A DNA stretch of 64,000 nucleotides from an uncultured Magnetospirillum sp. (GTDB taxonomy: Bacteria > Pseudomonadota > Alphaproteobacteria > Rhodospirillales > Magnetospirillaceae): contig NZ_CAINTR010000211.1 of the NCBI RefSeq assembly GCF_903853455.1, forward strand, positions 1 through 64,000, given 5' to 3'. The notes beneath the pieces are model-generated. The model was not told the origin of the DNA. It made no database searches and was given only the letters and a program-made list of their open reading frames with translations. Shown piece after piece: positions 56,239 through 64,000 of the stretch (within the stretch, counting starts at the first letter, position 1; each line of letters starts with the position of its first letter). The translations under genes and the position numbers were made by a program.

Positions 56239-57444
56239 TCATTCGTGGCGCGACCGTGTCATGGCCGCCAGCAGATCCTTGCCGTCCCAGATATGGCAGA
56301 AGTCCAGCGCCCGTCCCACCGGCACCAGCCGCTCGGCCCCCTTGCCGCTCAGCCACCCGGCCAGCGTGGCGCGGGCATCATCGGACAGGCCGAACTGGGT
56401 TAGGGTCTGAATCCGGGGATCGATCAACCGGGGCACCTCGTCCAGGCCGGCTAGGATGGTTTCCTGGAACAGGCCGCCGCCGCAGGTCTCGGGTCGCGGC
56501 GGCGCGACCCCTCCCCGTGCCACCAGGACCGCGGCGCCGTGGCGGGTGACGGTGGTGGCGACGCCGTCCAGGACGAGGCGGGCGGCTTCGGTGAGCTTGG
56601 CCATCTGGGTGGCGGGCGCCACCGCGTAGCCTTGCCGCTGGGCCCAGCCGGCGAGGCGCGGCCAGAAATCGGCGGCGGCTCGCTCGCAGGACGGGGCGTC
56701 TCCCACCCAGGCCAGCAACAGCGGCGACGAACAGGCCTTCTGATCGAACCAGAAGCAATCGCGGTAGAAGCGCTCGGCCAGATCGTCTCGGCCGGTTTCG
56801 TCGAGGGCCAGGGTGTCCGCCGCCATGATCACCGCCAGCGACCTGCGGTCGGGGAAGATCAGTTCGGTGGCTTCGGGCCGCAGCGGCAAGGCGCGGAAGG
56901 CGGCGACGGTGGCGTCCCCGCCCCAGATCACCCGCAGGTCGGCGGCCAGGGACAGGGCGCGGCTGGTGGCGTCGTCGCGGGGATAGCTCACCATGGCGGT
57001 GGCGGCGGCGAGGCGGGTGAAACTGGGTTCGGCCAGGGTTTCGGAGATCAGGCGCAGCAGCAGGGCGGTGCGGGCGCCGGCCCGCTCGGACAGCCGCACG
57101 ATCGCCCGGTTGCCCACCACGGCCGACAGCCACCAGGAATAGACGAACAGGGTTTCCACATTGGCTGGCGCCACGTGGAGGACCAGGCCGCGCGGGGCCC
57201 GGTGTTCCCCCAATCCCGCCACATGGGCGCGCAGTGTGGCGGTGGCGGCGGGGCGCAGCCAGAACGCCAGGCTGGCCAGATCGGGAAAGGCGCGGGCGGC
57301 GGGGTCGGCGAACAGGCGGGCCGACAGCCGGGCGCCGAACGCCTCGATCTCGGGATCGAACGGCGGCAGGACCGGCCCCAGCCGCGCCAGCAGTTCCGCC
57401 GGTTCCAGTTCAGCCGGGATGGGGGCCAGCAGCCGCAGGGTCAT
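56239..57444 (-). CDS. luxC-like: LuxC-type acyl reductase (acyl-CoA/acyl-protein to aldehyde)
   Basis: 401 residues. Aldehyde-dehydrogenase fold; the acyl-accepting Cys is C238 in FDQKACSSP, the LuxC signature. NAD(P)-binding region VIWGGDA. LuxC enzymes reduce acyl groups handed over by LuxE synthetases to aldehydes. Start ATG 57444 is in an ATGA overlap with the luxE-like stop. It is last gene of the cluster. No luxAB are present, so a light reaction is not implied. Confidence 0.85.
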   Translation of the reverse strand: MTLRLLAPIPAELEPAELLARLGPVLPPFDPEIEAFGARLSARLFADPAARAFPDLASLAFWLRPAATATLRAHVAGLGEHRAPRGLVLHVAPANVETLFVYSWWLSAVVGNRAIVRLSERAGARTALLLRLISETLAEPSFTRLAAATAMVSYPRDDATSRALSLAADLRVIWGGDATVAAFRALPLRPEATELIFPDRRSLAVIMAADTLALDETGRDDLAERFYRDCFWFDQKACSSPLLLAWVGDAPSCERAAADFWPRLAGWAQRQGYAVAPATQMAKLTEAARLVLDGVATTVTRHGAAVLVARGGVAPPRPETCGGGLFQETILAGLDEVPRLIDPRIQTLTQFGLSDDARATLAGWLSGKGAERLVPVGRALDFCHIWDGKDLLAAMTRSRHE

Positions 57445-58496
57445 GTCCCGCCTCCCGCCACGTCGCTGCATCCCCGCAGCTCGGCCTGCTTGACGCGGCC
57501 CAGCACGGTGAAGGATTTGCCCTTCCAGGCTCCCGCATCCATGGCGGTCACCACCCCCCAATCCTCGGTCAGGATGGAATGACCGGGATAAGAGAGGGGT
57601 AGCAGGCTCACCACCTGAATCAGGCCGGGGGTTCCGATGGGGCATTCCCGTAGGCTGTCCGGGTCGCGGATGATCACGTCGGCGGCGGCGGCGGGGTGGA
57701 GAAAGCCGTCCTCACCCTCCAGGAAGATCGAGCCGACCTGCTCTGCCATGCCGTAGAAGTTGACCACCCGCGTCAGGCCGGTTCGTCGCCGCAGTTCGGC
57801 CTTGAAGGACGCGTTATCGACTCCCTGTTCGGCCAGGGTCTTCCAGCCGCCGCCATGGATCAGGATGGCGTTGGACAGATCGGCCCCGGCGCTCCGCAGA
57901 TGGGTCCAGACCATGGCGGTCATGCCGAAGATCAGGAAGGGCGCCCCGCCATGGCTGGCGAGGAAGGCGGCCAGCGCGTCGCGGCGCACCGCCATGGATT
58001 GGTCCAGCAGGAAGGTATGGTGACGGCCGAACGGCATCATTCCCAGGATGCCGGCGCCGCGCGCCGAAAGCGGGCCGCCGCCGGCGATGGCGCCGTCGTG
58101 ATCGACGATCAGCATGGGCAGCCGCCGGGGTCCCAGCAGGGTCTGCATGATCGCCGACAGGGCGCGGCTTTGGCGGCTGGCGGTGGCGGCGTCCAGCGGG
58201 ATGCGGCTGACCGCCTGACCGCTGGTGCCGCTGCTGGTGAGGGTGCGGACGATGGTGGAATCCGGCACGCTCATCAGCAGGTGGCTCTTGAACACCCCCA
58301 CCGGCAACCATGGCAGCTCCGCCATGCGTTCGGTCCGTTCCGGCGGCGGAAACATCGCCCGCACCCAGGCGCCATAAGCGGGGCAGGCGGTGGCATGGTG
58401 GAGGGTGAGGCGCCGCAGCCCGTCGGCCAGCCAAGCCTCCTTGCGGGCCTGGTCATGGCCGTAAGGCGGCAGGGCCAGGATGGGGTCGTCGATCAT
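57441..58496 (-). CDS. luxE-like: LuxE-type acyl-protein synthetase
   Basis: 351 residues. ANL-related fold with the AMP-loop TSSGTSGQ at about 87-94 and the C-terminal NFYGMAEQVGSIF motif. LuxE activates a fatty acid as AMP and transfers it to a Cys before the reductase. Here it is coupled by 4-nt overlap both to the ligase gene upstream and to the luxC-like gene downstream. Substrate chain length cannot be told. Confidence 0.85.
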   Translation of the reverse strand: MIDDPILALPPYGHDQARKEAWLADGLRRLTLHHATACPAYGAWVRAMFPPPERTERMAELPWLPVGVFKSHLLMSVPDSTIVRTLTSSGTSGQAVSRIPLDAATASRQSRALSAIMQTLLGPRRLPMLIVDHDGAIAGGGPLSARGAGILGMMPFGRHHTFLLDQSMAVRRDALAAFLASHGGAPFLIFGMTAMVWTHLRSAGADLSNAILIHGGGWKTLAEQGVDNASFKAELRRRTGLTRVVNFYGMAEQVGSIFLEGEDGFLHPAAAADVIIRDPDSLRECPIGTPGLIQVVSLLPLSYPGHSILTEDWGVVTAMDAGAWKGKSFTVLGRVKQAELRGCSDVAGGGT

Positions 58497-62951: not shown

Positions 62952-63104
62952 ATGAGCAGTCAGGCCAAGGCAGCCCCCATTCCCCCGGCCGTCACCGATC
63001 TCCTGGCGCAGGTTCCCGCCGAGCCGCCCCGCGAAAGCGAGTCCACCTGGGTCGAGATCCGCGACTGGCGCTGCGACCTCAAGAGCCTGTACGGCCGCCG
63101 ATGA
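62952..63104 (+). CDS. Small protein of 50 residues preceding the carbamoyltransferase
   Basis: ATG 62952 has AGGAGGAAATG directly upstream. The product is MSSQAKAAPIPPAV, then a Pro-rich part and a short C-terminal WVEIRDWRCDLKSLYGRR. No membrane helix. Its stop overlaps the next ATG (ATGA), so it is translationally coupled to the carbamoyltransferase. Function unknown. Confidence 0.65.
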   Translation: MSSQAKAAPIPPAVTDLLAQVPAEPPRESESTWVEIRDWRCDLKSLYGRR

Positions 63105-64000
63105 ACGTCCTCGGCTTTTCCTGTCATTACCACGACGCCGCCGCCTGTCTGGTGCGCGACGGCCGGATCGTCGTCGCCGCCGAGGAAGAGCGCTTCACCC
63201 GGCGCAAGCATGACAACGGCTTCCCGGAACAAGCCATTGCCTATTGCCTGGCCGAGGGCGGTATCAAAGGCCGCGACCTCGACGCGGTCGCCTTCTACGA
63301 AAAGCCGCTCTCCAAGCTCGAACGGTCCCTGGTCACCGCCCGCCAAGCCCTGCCGGCCACCCCCGACCTGGTCGCCGCCGATATGGACCACGCCATCCGT
63401 GCGTCGCTGCGCCTCGACCAGACCGTGGCCGAGACCATCGGCTTCAACGGCGACATCCTCTATCTCGAACACCACCTGTCGCACGCCGCTGCCGCTTTCC
63501 TGCCGTCGCCTTTCGCGGAGGCGGCGATCCTCACGGTGGACGGTGTCGGCGAATGGGCCACCACCACCATCTTTCACGGCCGGGACGCCGACATCGCCAA
63601 GCTGCGCGAGATCCGCTATCCCGACTCGCTGGGCCTGTTCTACTCGGCGATGACCGCTTTCCTCGGCTTCGAGGTCAACGAGGGCGAGTACAAGCTGATG
63701 GGCTTGGCTTCCTACGGCAAGCCTCGCCATGTGGAGCTGTTCGAGCGGGTGATCCGCCTCCATCCCGACGGCAGCTTCCGCCTGTCGCCGGAATTCTTCA
63801 GCTACACGCAAAGCCGCGACGGCATGTTCACCCCCGCCTTGGCCGAGTTGTTGGGCATGGCGCCGCGCCGGCCCGACGAGGACGCCACCCAGCGCCACAT
63901 GGACATGGCCGCCTCCATGCAGAAGGTGGTCGAGGACGCCCTGGTCGGCCTGGCCCGCGCCGCCCGCGACGCCACCGGCGCCCGTGCGCTCTGCATGGCC
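63101..64000 (+). CDS. NodU/CmcH-family carbamoyltransferase, 3' end outside window
   Basis: First 300 codons, open to the window end. MNVLGFSCHYHDAAACLV, AAEEERFTRRKHD, LYLEHHLSHAAAAF, TVDGVGEWATT and NEGEYKLMGLASYG are the family's N-terminal motifs, including the His cluster that binds metal. Such enzymes move a carbamoyl group from carbamoyl phosphate through carbamoyl-AMP to a hydroxyl of a sugar or antibiotic. About half of the normal length is seen. It is in the same direction as the aminotransferase. Confidence 0.9.
   Translation, partial: MNVLGFSCHYHDAAACLVRDGRIVVAAEEERFTRRKHDNGFPEQAIAYCLAEGGIKGRDLDAVAFYEKPLSKLERSLVTARQALPATPDLVAADMDHAIRASLRLDQTVAETIGFNGDILYLEHHLSHAAAAFLPSPFAEAAILTVDGVGEWATTTIFHGRDADIAKLREIRYPDSLGLFYSAMTAFLGFEVNEGEYKLMGLASYGKPRHVELFERVIRLHPDGSFRLSPEFFSYTQSRDGMFTPALAELLGMAPRRPDEDATQRHMDMAASMQKVVEDALVGLARAARDATGARALCMA

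Follow-up and report, generated by a model that had tools for sequence, protein, structure and literature searches.

The subject of this analysis is a gene cluster near the right-hand end of the window, by which we mean the whole stretch of 64000 nucleotides studied (positions 1-64000 of the 79416-bp contig NZ_CAINTR010000211.1 from an uncultured Magnetospirillum sp.). Six genes lie there on the minus strand in the order SDR-NeuD-ACP-ligase-LuxE-LuxC, with a divergent aminotransferase gene beside them, and we argue that they probably form a variant of the tetronate module of the Vibrio cholerae O1 antigen. The operon opens with a gene for a FabG-like short-chain dehydrogenase/reductase (SDR; 60857..61600; PF13561 (adh_short_C2), E = 2.3e-65), the proposed aldehyde-to-alcohol reductase, which starts with GTG and is preceded by AGGAGG. 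It continues with a NeuD/VioB-type hexapeptide N-acyltransferase (60204..60860; hexapeptide and PglD_N matches in Pfam; 172.5 bits on TIGR03570 (NeuD_NnaD), cut-off 160.8), a dedicated acyl carrier protein (ACP; 59894..60127) recognized by the W-D-S motif in WDSVGHMRL, and an adenosine monophosphate (AMP)-forming acyl ligase of 466 aa, the proposed ACP loader (58493..59893; PF00501, 5e-49). The last two genes encode a LuxE-like acyl-protein synthetase of 351 aa (57441..58496; PF04443, E = 2.9e-46), with a C-terminal acyl-cysteine in RGC, and a LuxC-like acyl-thioester reductase of 401 aa (56239..57444; PF05893, E = 1.8e-20), with its catalytic cysteine in FDQKACSSP. On the plus strand stands the gene for a DegT/DnrJ nucleotide-sugar aminotransferase (61717..62823; PF01041, 6.9e-43). 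Every gene that the original prediction, made from the letters of this stretch, had named (LuxC-like, LuxE-like, AMP-ligase, ACP, NeuD, SDR, DegT and a carbamoyltransferase) was recovered by Pfam and NCBIfam scans of the window proteins. Relative to the earlier gene calls, three starts were moved downstream, those of LuxC (57444), LuxE (58496) and the SDR (61600, GTG), which corrects the length of LuxC from 468 to 401 aa and that of LuxE from 446 to 351 aa. The five overlaps or near-overlaps that had been described are to be reduced by one: four of the five junctions overlap or abut (4-bp overlaps of SDR/NeuD, AMP-ligase/LuxE and LuxE/LuxC; ACP and AMP-ligase abutting), and a gap of 76 bp separates NeuD from ACP.

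Although the names LuxE and LuxC recall bacterial luciferase, the window proteins score far below the cut-offs of the luciferase equivalog models of NCBIfam (48.7 of 550 bits for LuxE, 17.8 of 750 bits for LuxC). A profile of the window-type LuxE, run over 394 genomes of the order to which the Aliivibrio metagenome-assembled genome G441 belongs, gave 441-513 bits in 40 of them (including G441, which was chosen for having the module) and 327-331 bits in two RfbN-type genomes with open frames of 830 aa, whereas every other match reached at most 108 bits. In the Vibrionaceae locus L172, the RfbN-type protein joins LuxE and LuxC in one chain (Pfam scores of 595 and 431 bits for the two domains), and its LuxE domain is 34% identical to the window LuxE. 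In a 57-row tree of LuxE proteins, rooted by midpoint only and containing one long row (L049), luciferase LuxE and a third Vibrionaceae type were split from the module rows and RfbN with support of 100/99. For LuxC, the module profile gave 139-146 bits on RfbN versus 78 bits on the one luciferase LuxC scored, a smaller gap than that of LuxE and one taken from a single luciferase locus. C343 of LuxE (in RGC) is invariant in a 13-row alignment and C238 of LuxC (in CSSP) in a 12-row alignment; both are kept in RfbN, and we take them to be the acyl-carrying positions of the lux enzymes. Judged by these comparisons, the window LuxE belongs with RfbN and not with luciferase LuxE. The third type (L178, L179, L180), neither luciferase nor module, lies near another AMP-ligase. 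Luciferase-type fatty-acid reduction was rejected on the equivalog scores, the LuxE profile scores and the tree; the remark in the original prediction that luxAB is missing here also held, no luxA, luxB or luxD being present in the 9 + 10 proteins scanned from position 56239 to contig position 79055, the rest of the genome not having been searched.

Kinship with RfbN extends to the neighbouring genes. In three Vibrionaceae loci (L172-L174) and in a fourth of the same order (L246), the RfbN-type protein is preceded by an ACP, an AMP-ligase and a gene of 374-375 aa, which lies between the ligase and LuxE::LuxC and which in L172 is an iron-containing alcohol dehydrogenase (Fe-ADH) by Pfam. The arrangement in L172-L174 matches that of VC0249-VC0252 in V. 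cholerae. The ACPs of L172-L174 carry the same WDSxxHM motif as the window ACP. The latter has no Pfam match and only a sub-threshold hit to an NCBIfam ACP subfamily (E = 1.2e-4, 22.2 of 66 bits); nevertheless, W, S and H of its motif W-D-S-x-[AG]-H-M are invariant in all 107 distinct loci with an ACP row. The window ligase, which abuts the ACP gene, is close in length to WbeL of V. cholerae (471 aa in the available part of PMC3441752). The alcohol-forming candidate of the window is its SDR and not an Fe-ADH, and its LuxE and LuxC are two genes and not one fused RfbN.

The module is found far beyond Magnetospirillum, in a patchy fashion. LuxE exceeded the family cut-off in 6 of 60 relatives and in 13 of 385 genomes of the class (the window's genome being included in both counts), and, within its genus, in 2 of 17 genomes. 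ACP, ligase and LuxE homologues were found together on one fetched stretch in four of five cases among the relatives and eight of twelve in the class, counts in which the ACP of L027 is 7 kb off, L053 is without LuxC, and L047, with distant relatives only, is not included. Among the named genomes scanned there are at least 560 LuxE relatives, and the best 80 of these come from Actinomycetota, Acidobacteriota, Chloroflexota, Bacteroidota, Bacillota, Myxococcota, Pseudomonadota, a Melainabacteria metagenome-assembled genome and others. Many of these 80 loci (L059-L138) derive from Amycolatopsis, Nonomuraea, Micromonospora and Salinispora.

For analysis of gene neighbourhoods, we assembled 110 loci. 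They comprise the best 80 of the at least 560 confirmed matches, from which L062 (a duplicate of L028) and L088 (a duplicate of L054) were removed, together with the window, 12 loci fetched from relatives and from the class, and 19 loci of the 40 module genomes from the order of G441; L246 stands outside this set, which over-represents kin of the window and Amycolatopsis/Nonomuraea. Neighbours were clustered on one representative set rather than on all neighbouring open reading frames (ORFs), and counts by genus use 73 labels, group codes and single loci included. Within 5 kb of LuxE, homologues of LuxC and of the ligase each occur in 109 of the 110 loci, of the ACP in 105 and of the SDR in 95. 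The original prediction had called for a search for the same gene set and order in related genomes: 83 of the 110 loci, representing 47 of the 73 genus labels, keep the same-strand order ACP-SDR-ligase-LuxE-LuxC. Fusions also occur, of LuxE with LuxC in L230 and of ligase with LuxE in L243 and L244, the last two with one stop codon flagged in the matched span. The genome contig of L230 (G996:C42) has two module-type LuxE copies about 9 kb apart, one of them being that fused to LuxC, and in L233 the module is split by a 1169-aa Maf-cluster gene between AMP-ligase and LuxE. Chance as the source of the gene set is excluded, as judged from homology and from the order kept in other phyla. On the same sequence evidence, the window genes make up a module that is real, patchy in occurrence and widespread, and that belongs to a known kind, here in a variant with an SDR and with LuxE and LuxC unfused.

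The genes that accompany the module bear on its acceptor. The best solved relative of the window NeuD is VioB (7txp, E = 8.7e-29), aligned over nearly the whole length, and the perosamine N-acetyltransferase 4ea7 ranks fourth. For the window DegT, 3ju7 is nearest, followed by 2po3 (which we take to be DesI) and WbpE, with perosamine synthetase lower down; these are mostly sugar aminotransferases, and no NCBIfam equivalog cut-off was exceeded (108.4 of 650 bits for DesI). The relatives of NeuD and DegT both point to a 4-amino-4,6-dideoxyhexose. Across the 110 loci, the ACYLTRANSFERASE slot within 6 kb is taken by a NeuD-type protein in 44 cases and by a PseH-like GNAT in 20, never by both and in 46 by neither; NeuD-type here means at least 50 bits on a profile of the window's kin, so that weak hexapeptide proteins are included. 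The mutual exclusion gives a Fisher p of 1.7e-5 (7.5e-4 by genus label), or 0.013 on the 91 loci that remain without the 19 from the order of G441 (counts of 43, 7 and 0), kinship not being otherwise corrected.

In 14 of these 19 loci, GNATs of one cluster head the module, inside or beside a pse-type (pseudaminate) gene cluster; by the 110-locus count, 13 of the 19 have a GNAT no more than 6 kb from LuxE. One of the loci, L237, was named with NCBIfam and reads FliD(end)-FliS-?-PseB-PseC-PseF-?-PseI-PseG-GNAT-ACP-SDR-ligase-LuxE-LuxC-GT2, and a Maf protein is encoded beyond these genes. The curated cut-offs are exceeded there by PseB, C, F, G and I, PseC being the DegT gene of the locus, and the GNAT reaches 64.5 of the 93.1 bits needed for PseH. 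Among the 40 module genomes, a count made by eye found a PseH match within about 7 kb of LuxE in 23 (59.2-98.9 bits; one over the cut-off), the other 17 having no nearby one among the matches listed. Conversely, of the 30 genomes out of 394 that exceed the PseH cut-off, G1006 (adjacent) and G892 (on another contig) have the module. In an alignment, the glycine of the coenzyme A (CoA) loop was present in none of 14 pse-linked module GNATs versus 19 of 20 standard PseH proteins, which were taken from 20 of those 30 genomes; the loop reads [RKQ]xx[I/V/L/M] in the former and ends in G (often RGxG) in the latter. The glycine column aligns with G99 of Campylobacter jejuni PseH and with G109 of 4ri1, the latter corresponding, from the offset of Ile93-Tyr94-Lys95, to Gly103 of Helicobacter pylori PseH, a residue whose main chain binds the CoA pyrophosphate, as described in the accessible part of PMC4363471. 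Because this contact is made by the main chain, the absence of the glycine hints that CoA binding has been lost, without proving it.

Our preferred reading, to which we give a probability of about two in three, is that the operon is an unfused, SDR-type tetronate module, whose product is a short hydroxyacyl group ending in CH2OH that is then attached to the amine of a sugar. In the proposed route, a C4 diacid or hydroxy-acid would be bound through one of its carboxyls to the dedicated ACP by the AMP-ligase, and LuxE would activate the other carboxyl as acyl-AMP and receive the acyl group on its C-terminal cysteine. LuxC would then take the acyl group on its own cysteine and reduce it with NAD(P)H to an aldehyde, which the SDR would convert to the alcohol. 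NeuD would transfer the finished group from the ACP to the amino group of a 4-amino-4,6-dideoxyhexose, which DegT would provide in nucleotide-activated form, and downstream glycosyltransferases would place the sugar on flagellin or a surface glycan. We propose as candidates for the acyl group 2,4-dihydroxybutyryl (the first of these corresponding to what we take tetronate to be, 2,4-dihydroxybutyrate), 3,4-dihydroxybutyryl or 4-hydroxybutyryl, from malate or succinate. What carries this proposal directly is gene content, gene order, the conserved cysteines and serine, the kinship to RfbN-type loci and the linked N-acyltransferases; from these we infer the substrate, chain length, step order, sugar and final glycan. 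The original prediction had likewise envisaged that a dedicated acyl-ACP and reductase set serves to acylate an amino sugar of a flagellin or surface glycan, and this idea is supported by the relatives, whose module loci adjoin pseudaminate-type, Maf and other sugar genes.

The same five genes, ACP, SDR, ligase, LuxE and LuxC, have been in print in flagellin islands since 2016 and 2021 (PMC4875605, PMC7874193), and the suggestion of a possible new pathway is thus not supported, the gene logic also being that of the V. cholerae O1 tetronate block. In the portions available to us, PMC4875605 records the set in 71-80 strains by gene in enterobacterial islands, whereas PMC7874193 names the genes of Group II islands ACP, 3-oxoacyl-ACP reductase, AMP-dependent synthetase or ligase, luxE and luxC, and places the five ORFs of Aeromonas piscicola AH-3 just downstream of pseH. 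The AH-3 flagellin carries a glycan of 1491 Da with a pseudaminate derivative of 376.14 Da and an unexplained moiety of 102 Da; on deletion of fgi-1, which leaves the lux genes, the 376-Da sugar stays and the remaining chain, including the 102-Da moiety, is gone (PMC7874193, same portions). We calculate 376.1482 for Pse5Ac7Ac with one acetyl replaced by dihydroxybutyryl. C4H6O3 corresponds to 102.0317 and, together with the residue of 376.1482, brings the whole AH-3 glycan to 1491.490; other formulas of C, H, N and O also fit 102 at nominal mass. Group I and III islands are found in strains with a single sugar (PMC7874193), and the forms in such strains differ from that of AH-3, being Pse5Ac7Ac for A. 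caviae Sch3N (table in PMC3958885) and 403 Da for AH-1 (PMC4691044). We found no link of flagellin islands to the tetronate pathway and no assignment of the 376- or 102-Da masses in the open-access literature searched, subscription papers being mostly outside this coverage. Searches of papers that deal with nonulosonate clusters of Vibrionaceae or with the flagella of Plesiomonas and A. caviae likewise gave no passage on the module genes.

These data allow a broader claim, which we put forward tentatively and at somewhat less than even odds. It holds, as one statement, that a cross-phylum N-acylation system exists in which PseH-like or NeuD-like enzymes, one or the other, would have switched their donor from acetyl-CoA to a short, carboxyl-reduced hydroxyacyl-ACP supplied by the adjacent ACP-SDR-ligase-LuxE-LuxC genes; that the 376-Da pseudaminate of AH-3, and perhaps its 102-Da moiety, would be dihydroxybutyryl products; and that the liposugar reading of the flagellin islands would be wrong.

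Several observations weigh against the proposed pathway or its extension. The match at 376 Da is post hoc and concerns one strain, and a '376 Da sugar' appears as well in a figure legend of the paper on AH-1, a strain whose glycan is 403 Da (PMC4691044). The CoA-loop result concerns GNATs, whereas the window carries NeuD; in six more loci that have a GNAT no farther than 6 kb away, the aligned column holds G (five) or A (one), although by eye, in an uncertain alignment, the GNAT of L119 looks ordinary and four others show an R-G-[E/D]-L-L loop unlike the standard one. Since 13 of the 20 GNAT loci come from one bacterial order, the exclusion of NeuD and GNAT is confounded by kinship. On the window's contig, no pse gene or Maf was present among the genes scanned from 56239 to contig position 79055, positions 1-56238 of the window not having been scanned for these, and a whole-genome search placed flagellin matches only on contigs C137, C191, C144 and C57. 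No enzyme assay of the module was found in the literature searched, and the tetronate pathway is called 'putative' in the title of its own paper. Finally, three Vibrionaceae loci (L175, L176, L177) have extra genes of FabA-like and thiamine pyrophosphate (TPP)-enzyme size between ACP and ligase, which in L177 are by Pfam a FabA-like protein, a TPP-dependent enzyme and NeuB; because of these extras, the acyl group may differ between loci.

The variant loci with TPP and FabA-like genes, together with the 46 of 110 loci that have neither NeuD nor GNAT within 6 kb, which also count against the proposed pathway, are what favours the strongest of the alternatives. In it, the core genes reduce a carboxylate, but the bond to the sugar is another one (an ester, an ether or a branched sugar) or the acid is another one (3-hydroxybutyrate or a malonate-derived acid). 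We regard this as unlikely, given that an acyltransferase is linked in 64 of 110 loci and that in the O1 antigen the amino groups of perosamine are acylated with tetronate (PMC3441752). Less likely still is that a long-chain fatty acyl group is reduced or loaded by these genes and ends up as a decoration of the glycan, as both island papers suggest when they propose a liposugar role (PMC4875605, PMC7874193). The names LuxC, LuxE, FabG and ACP invite such a reading, and the luciferase complex 7xc6 heads the solved relatives of both proteins, as the best one for LuxE and the sole one for LuxC. It is opposed by the luciferase-model scores, by the tree and score gap that put LuxE with RfbN, by the VioB- and PseH-like character of the linked acyltransferases, and by the AH-3 residues of 376 and 102 Da, which are too small for a long chain on those residues; the lipid product of the original prediction is not supported, given the grouping of LuxE. 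The weakest alternative, in which DegT aminates the LuxE/LuxC aldehyde to an omega-amino acyl group, is very improbable even though 47 of 110 loci have a DegT gene at most 6 kb away and this gene is divergently adjacent in the window and in L028, as the window enzyme resembles 4-keto-sugar aminotransferases and has mostly sugar aminotransferases among its solved relatives, the DegT gene of L237 is PseC, and the SDR is the more constant partner (95 of 110 loci), with an Fe-ADH in L172.

The carbamoyltransferase gene, of which the window holds the N-terminal part (63101..64000, plus strand; Carbam_trans_N, 5.3e-55), runs past the window to contig position 64786 and encodes 561 aa, with PF02543 and PF16861 matched on the full gene. 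It had been counted as a pathway member, which is ruled out by its occurrence in one of the 110 module loci, namely the window itself, and we read it as a local decoration. A 51-aa ORF (62949..63104, plus strand) overlaps its start, has no Pfam or NCBIfam match and may not be a gene; with no convincing relative in other loci (best E 0.10), it is ruled out as a module member. A second carbamoyltransferase in the same genome (L032, within G000:C8:122001-142000), 46% identical, adjoins a TPR-GT41-like gene, and its neighbourhood is probably another glycan cluster. Downstream of the window, the carbamoyltransferase gene runs to its end and is followed by genes for a 621-aa protein that has no Pfam match, two methyltransferases and a TPR/GT4 protein, and then an asparagine-synthase-like protein, a GT4 protein, a TPR-GT41 protein, a 264-aa protein without match and a formyltransferase. 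The expectation that glycosyltransferases and flagellin or nucleotide-sugar genes might lie beyond 64 kb was borne out for the former (GT4, TPR-GT41), with no flagellin, Maf or pse gene among the ten downstream proteins scanned.

Among known systems, the closest is the tetronate block of V. cholerae O1 (RfbL/WbeL, Fe-ADH, RfbN and an acetyltransferase), whose genes VC0248-VC0252 are assigned to tetronate biosynthesis in the available part of PMC3441752. The window shares with it the AMP-ligase, LuxE plus LuxC and an acyltransferase, and with the RfbN-type loci L172-L174 a dedicated WDSxxHM ACP; the V. cholerae side of this comparison is known from papers, the RfbN-type sequences being those of Vibrionaceae L172-L174 and of L246. 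A known pathway with exactly this gene set, which had been named as a finding that would refute the original prediction, is thus nearly at hand, the differences being an SDR instead of an Fe-ADH and LuxE and LuxC as separate genes rather than a fused RfbN. The Group II flagellin islands of Aeromonas and the enterobacterial islands have the same five lux/ACP genes as the window; according to the portions available, those of Aeromonas lie next to pse genes and pseH (PMC7874193, PMC4875605), whereas the window has NeuD and DegT and no pse gene among those scanned. Through this comparison, the lux-like genes found in islands for flagellin and surface glycans become linked to a tetronate pathway that has long been labelled 'putative'; a short acyl group of defined kind is predicted instead of a lipid, and two unexplained Aeromonas flagellin masses would gain an identity. 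The named members of the VioB, perosamine N-acetyltransferase and PglD group are acetyltransferases, whereas the window NeuD is encoded inside an operon with a dedicated ACP; for PseH-type enzymes, we propose a switch of donor from CoA to ACP. With the LuxC-LuxE reductase of the lux system (7xc6), the window shares the protein families, the two-step reduction of an acid and, presumably, both cysteine positions, but it differs in the absence of luxA, luxB and luxD among the genes scanned, in scores far under the curated cut-offs and in a separate LuxE clade, so that the names LuxC and LuxE probably denote here the acylation of a sugar, and neither light nor lipid.

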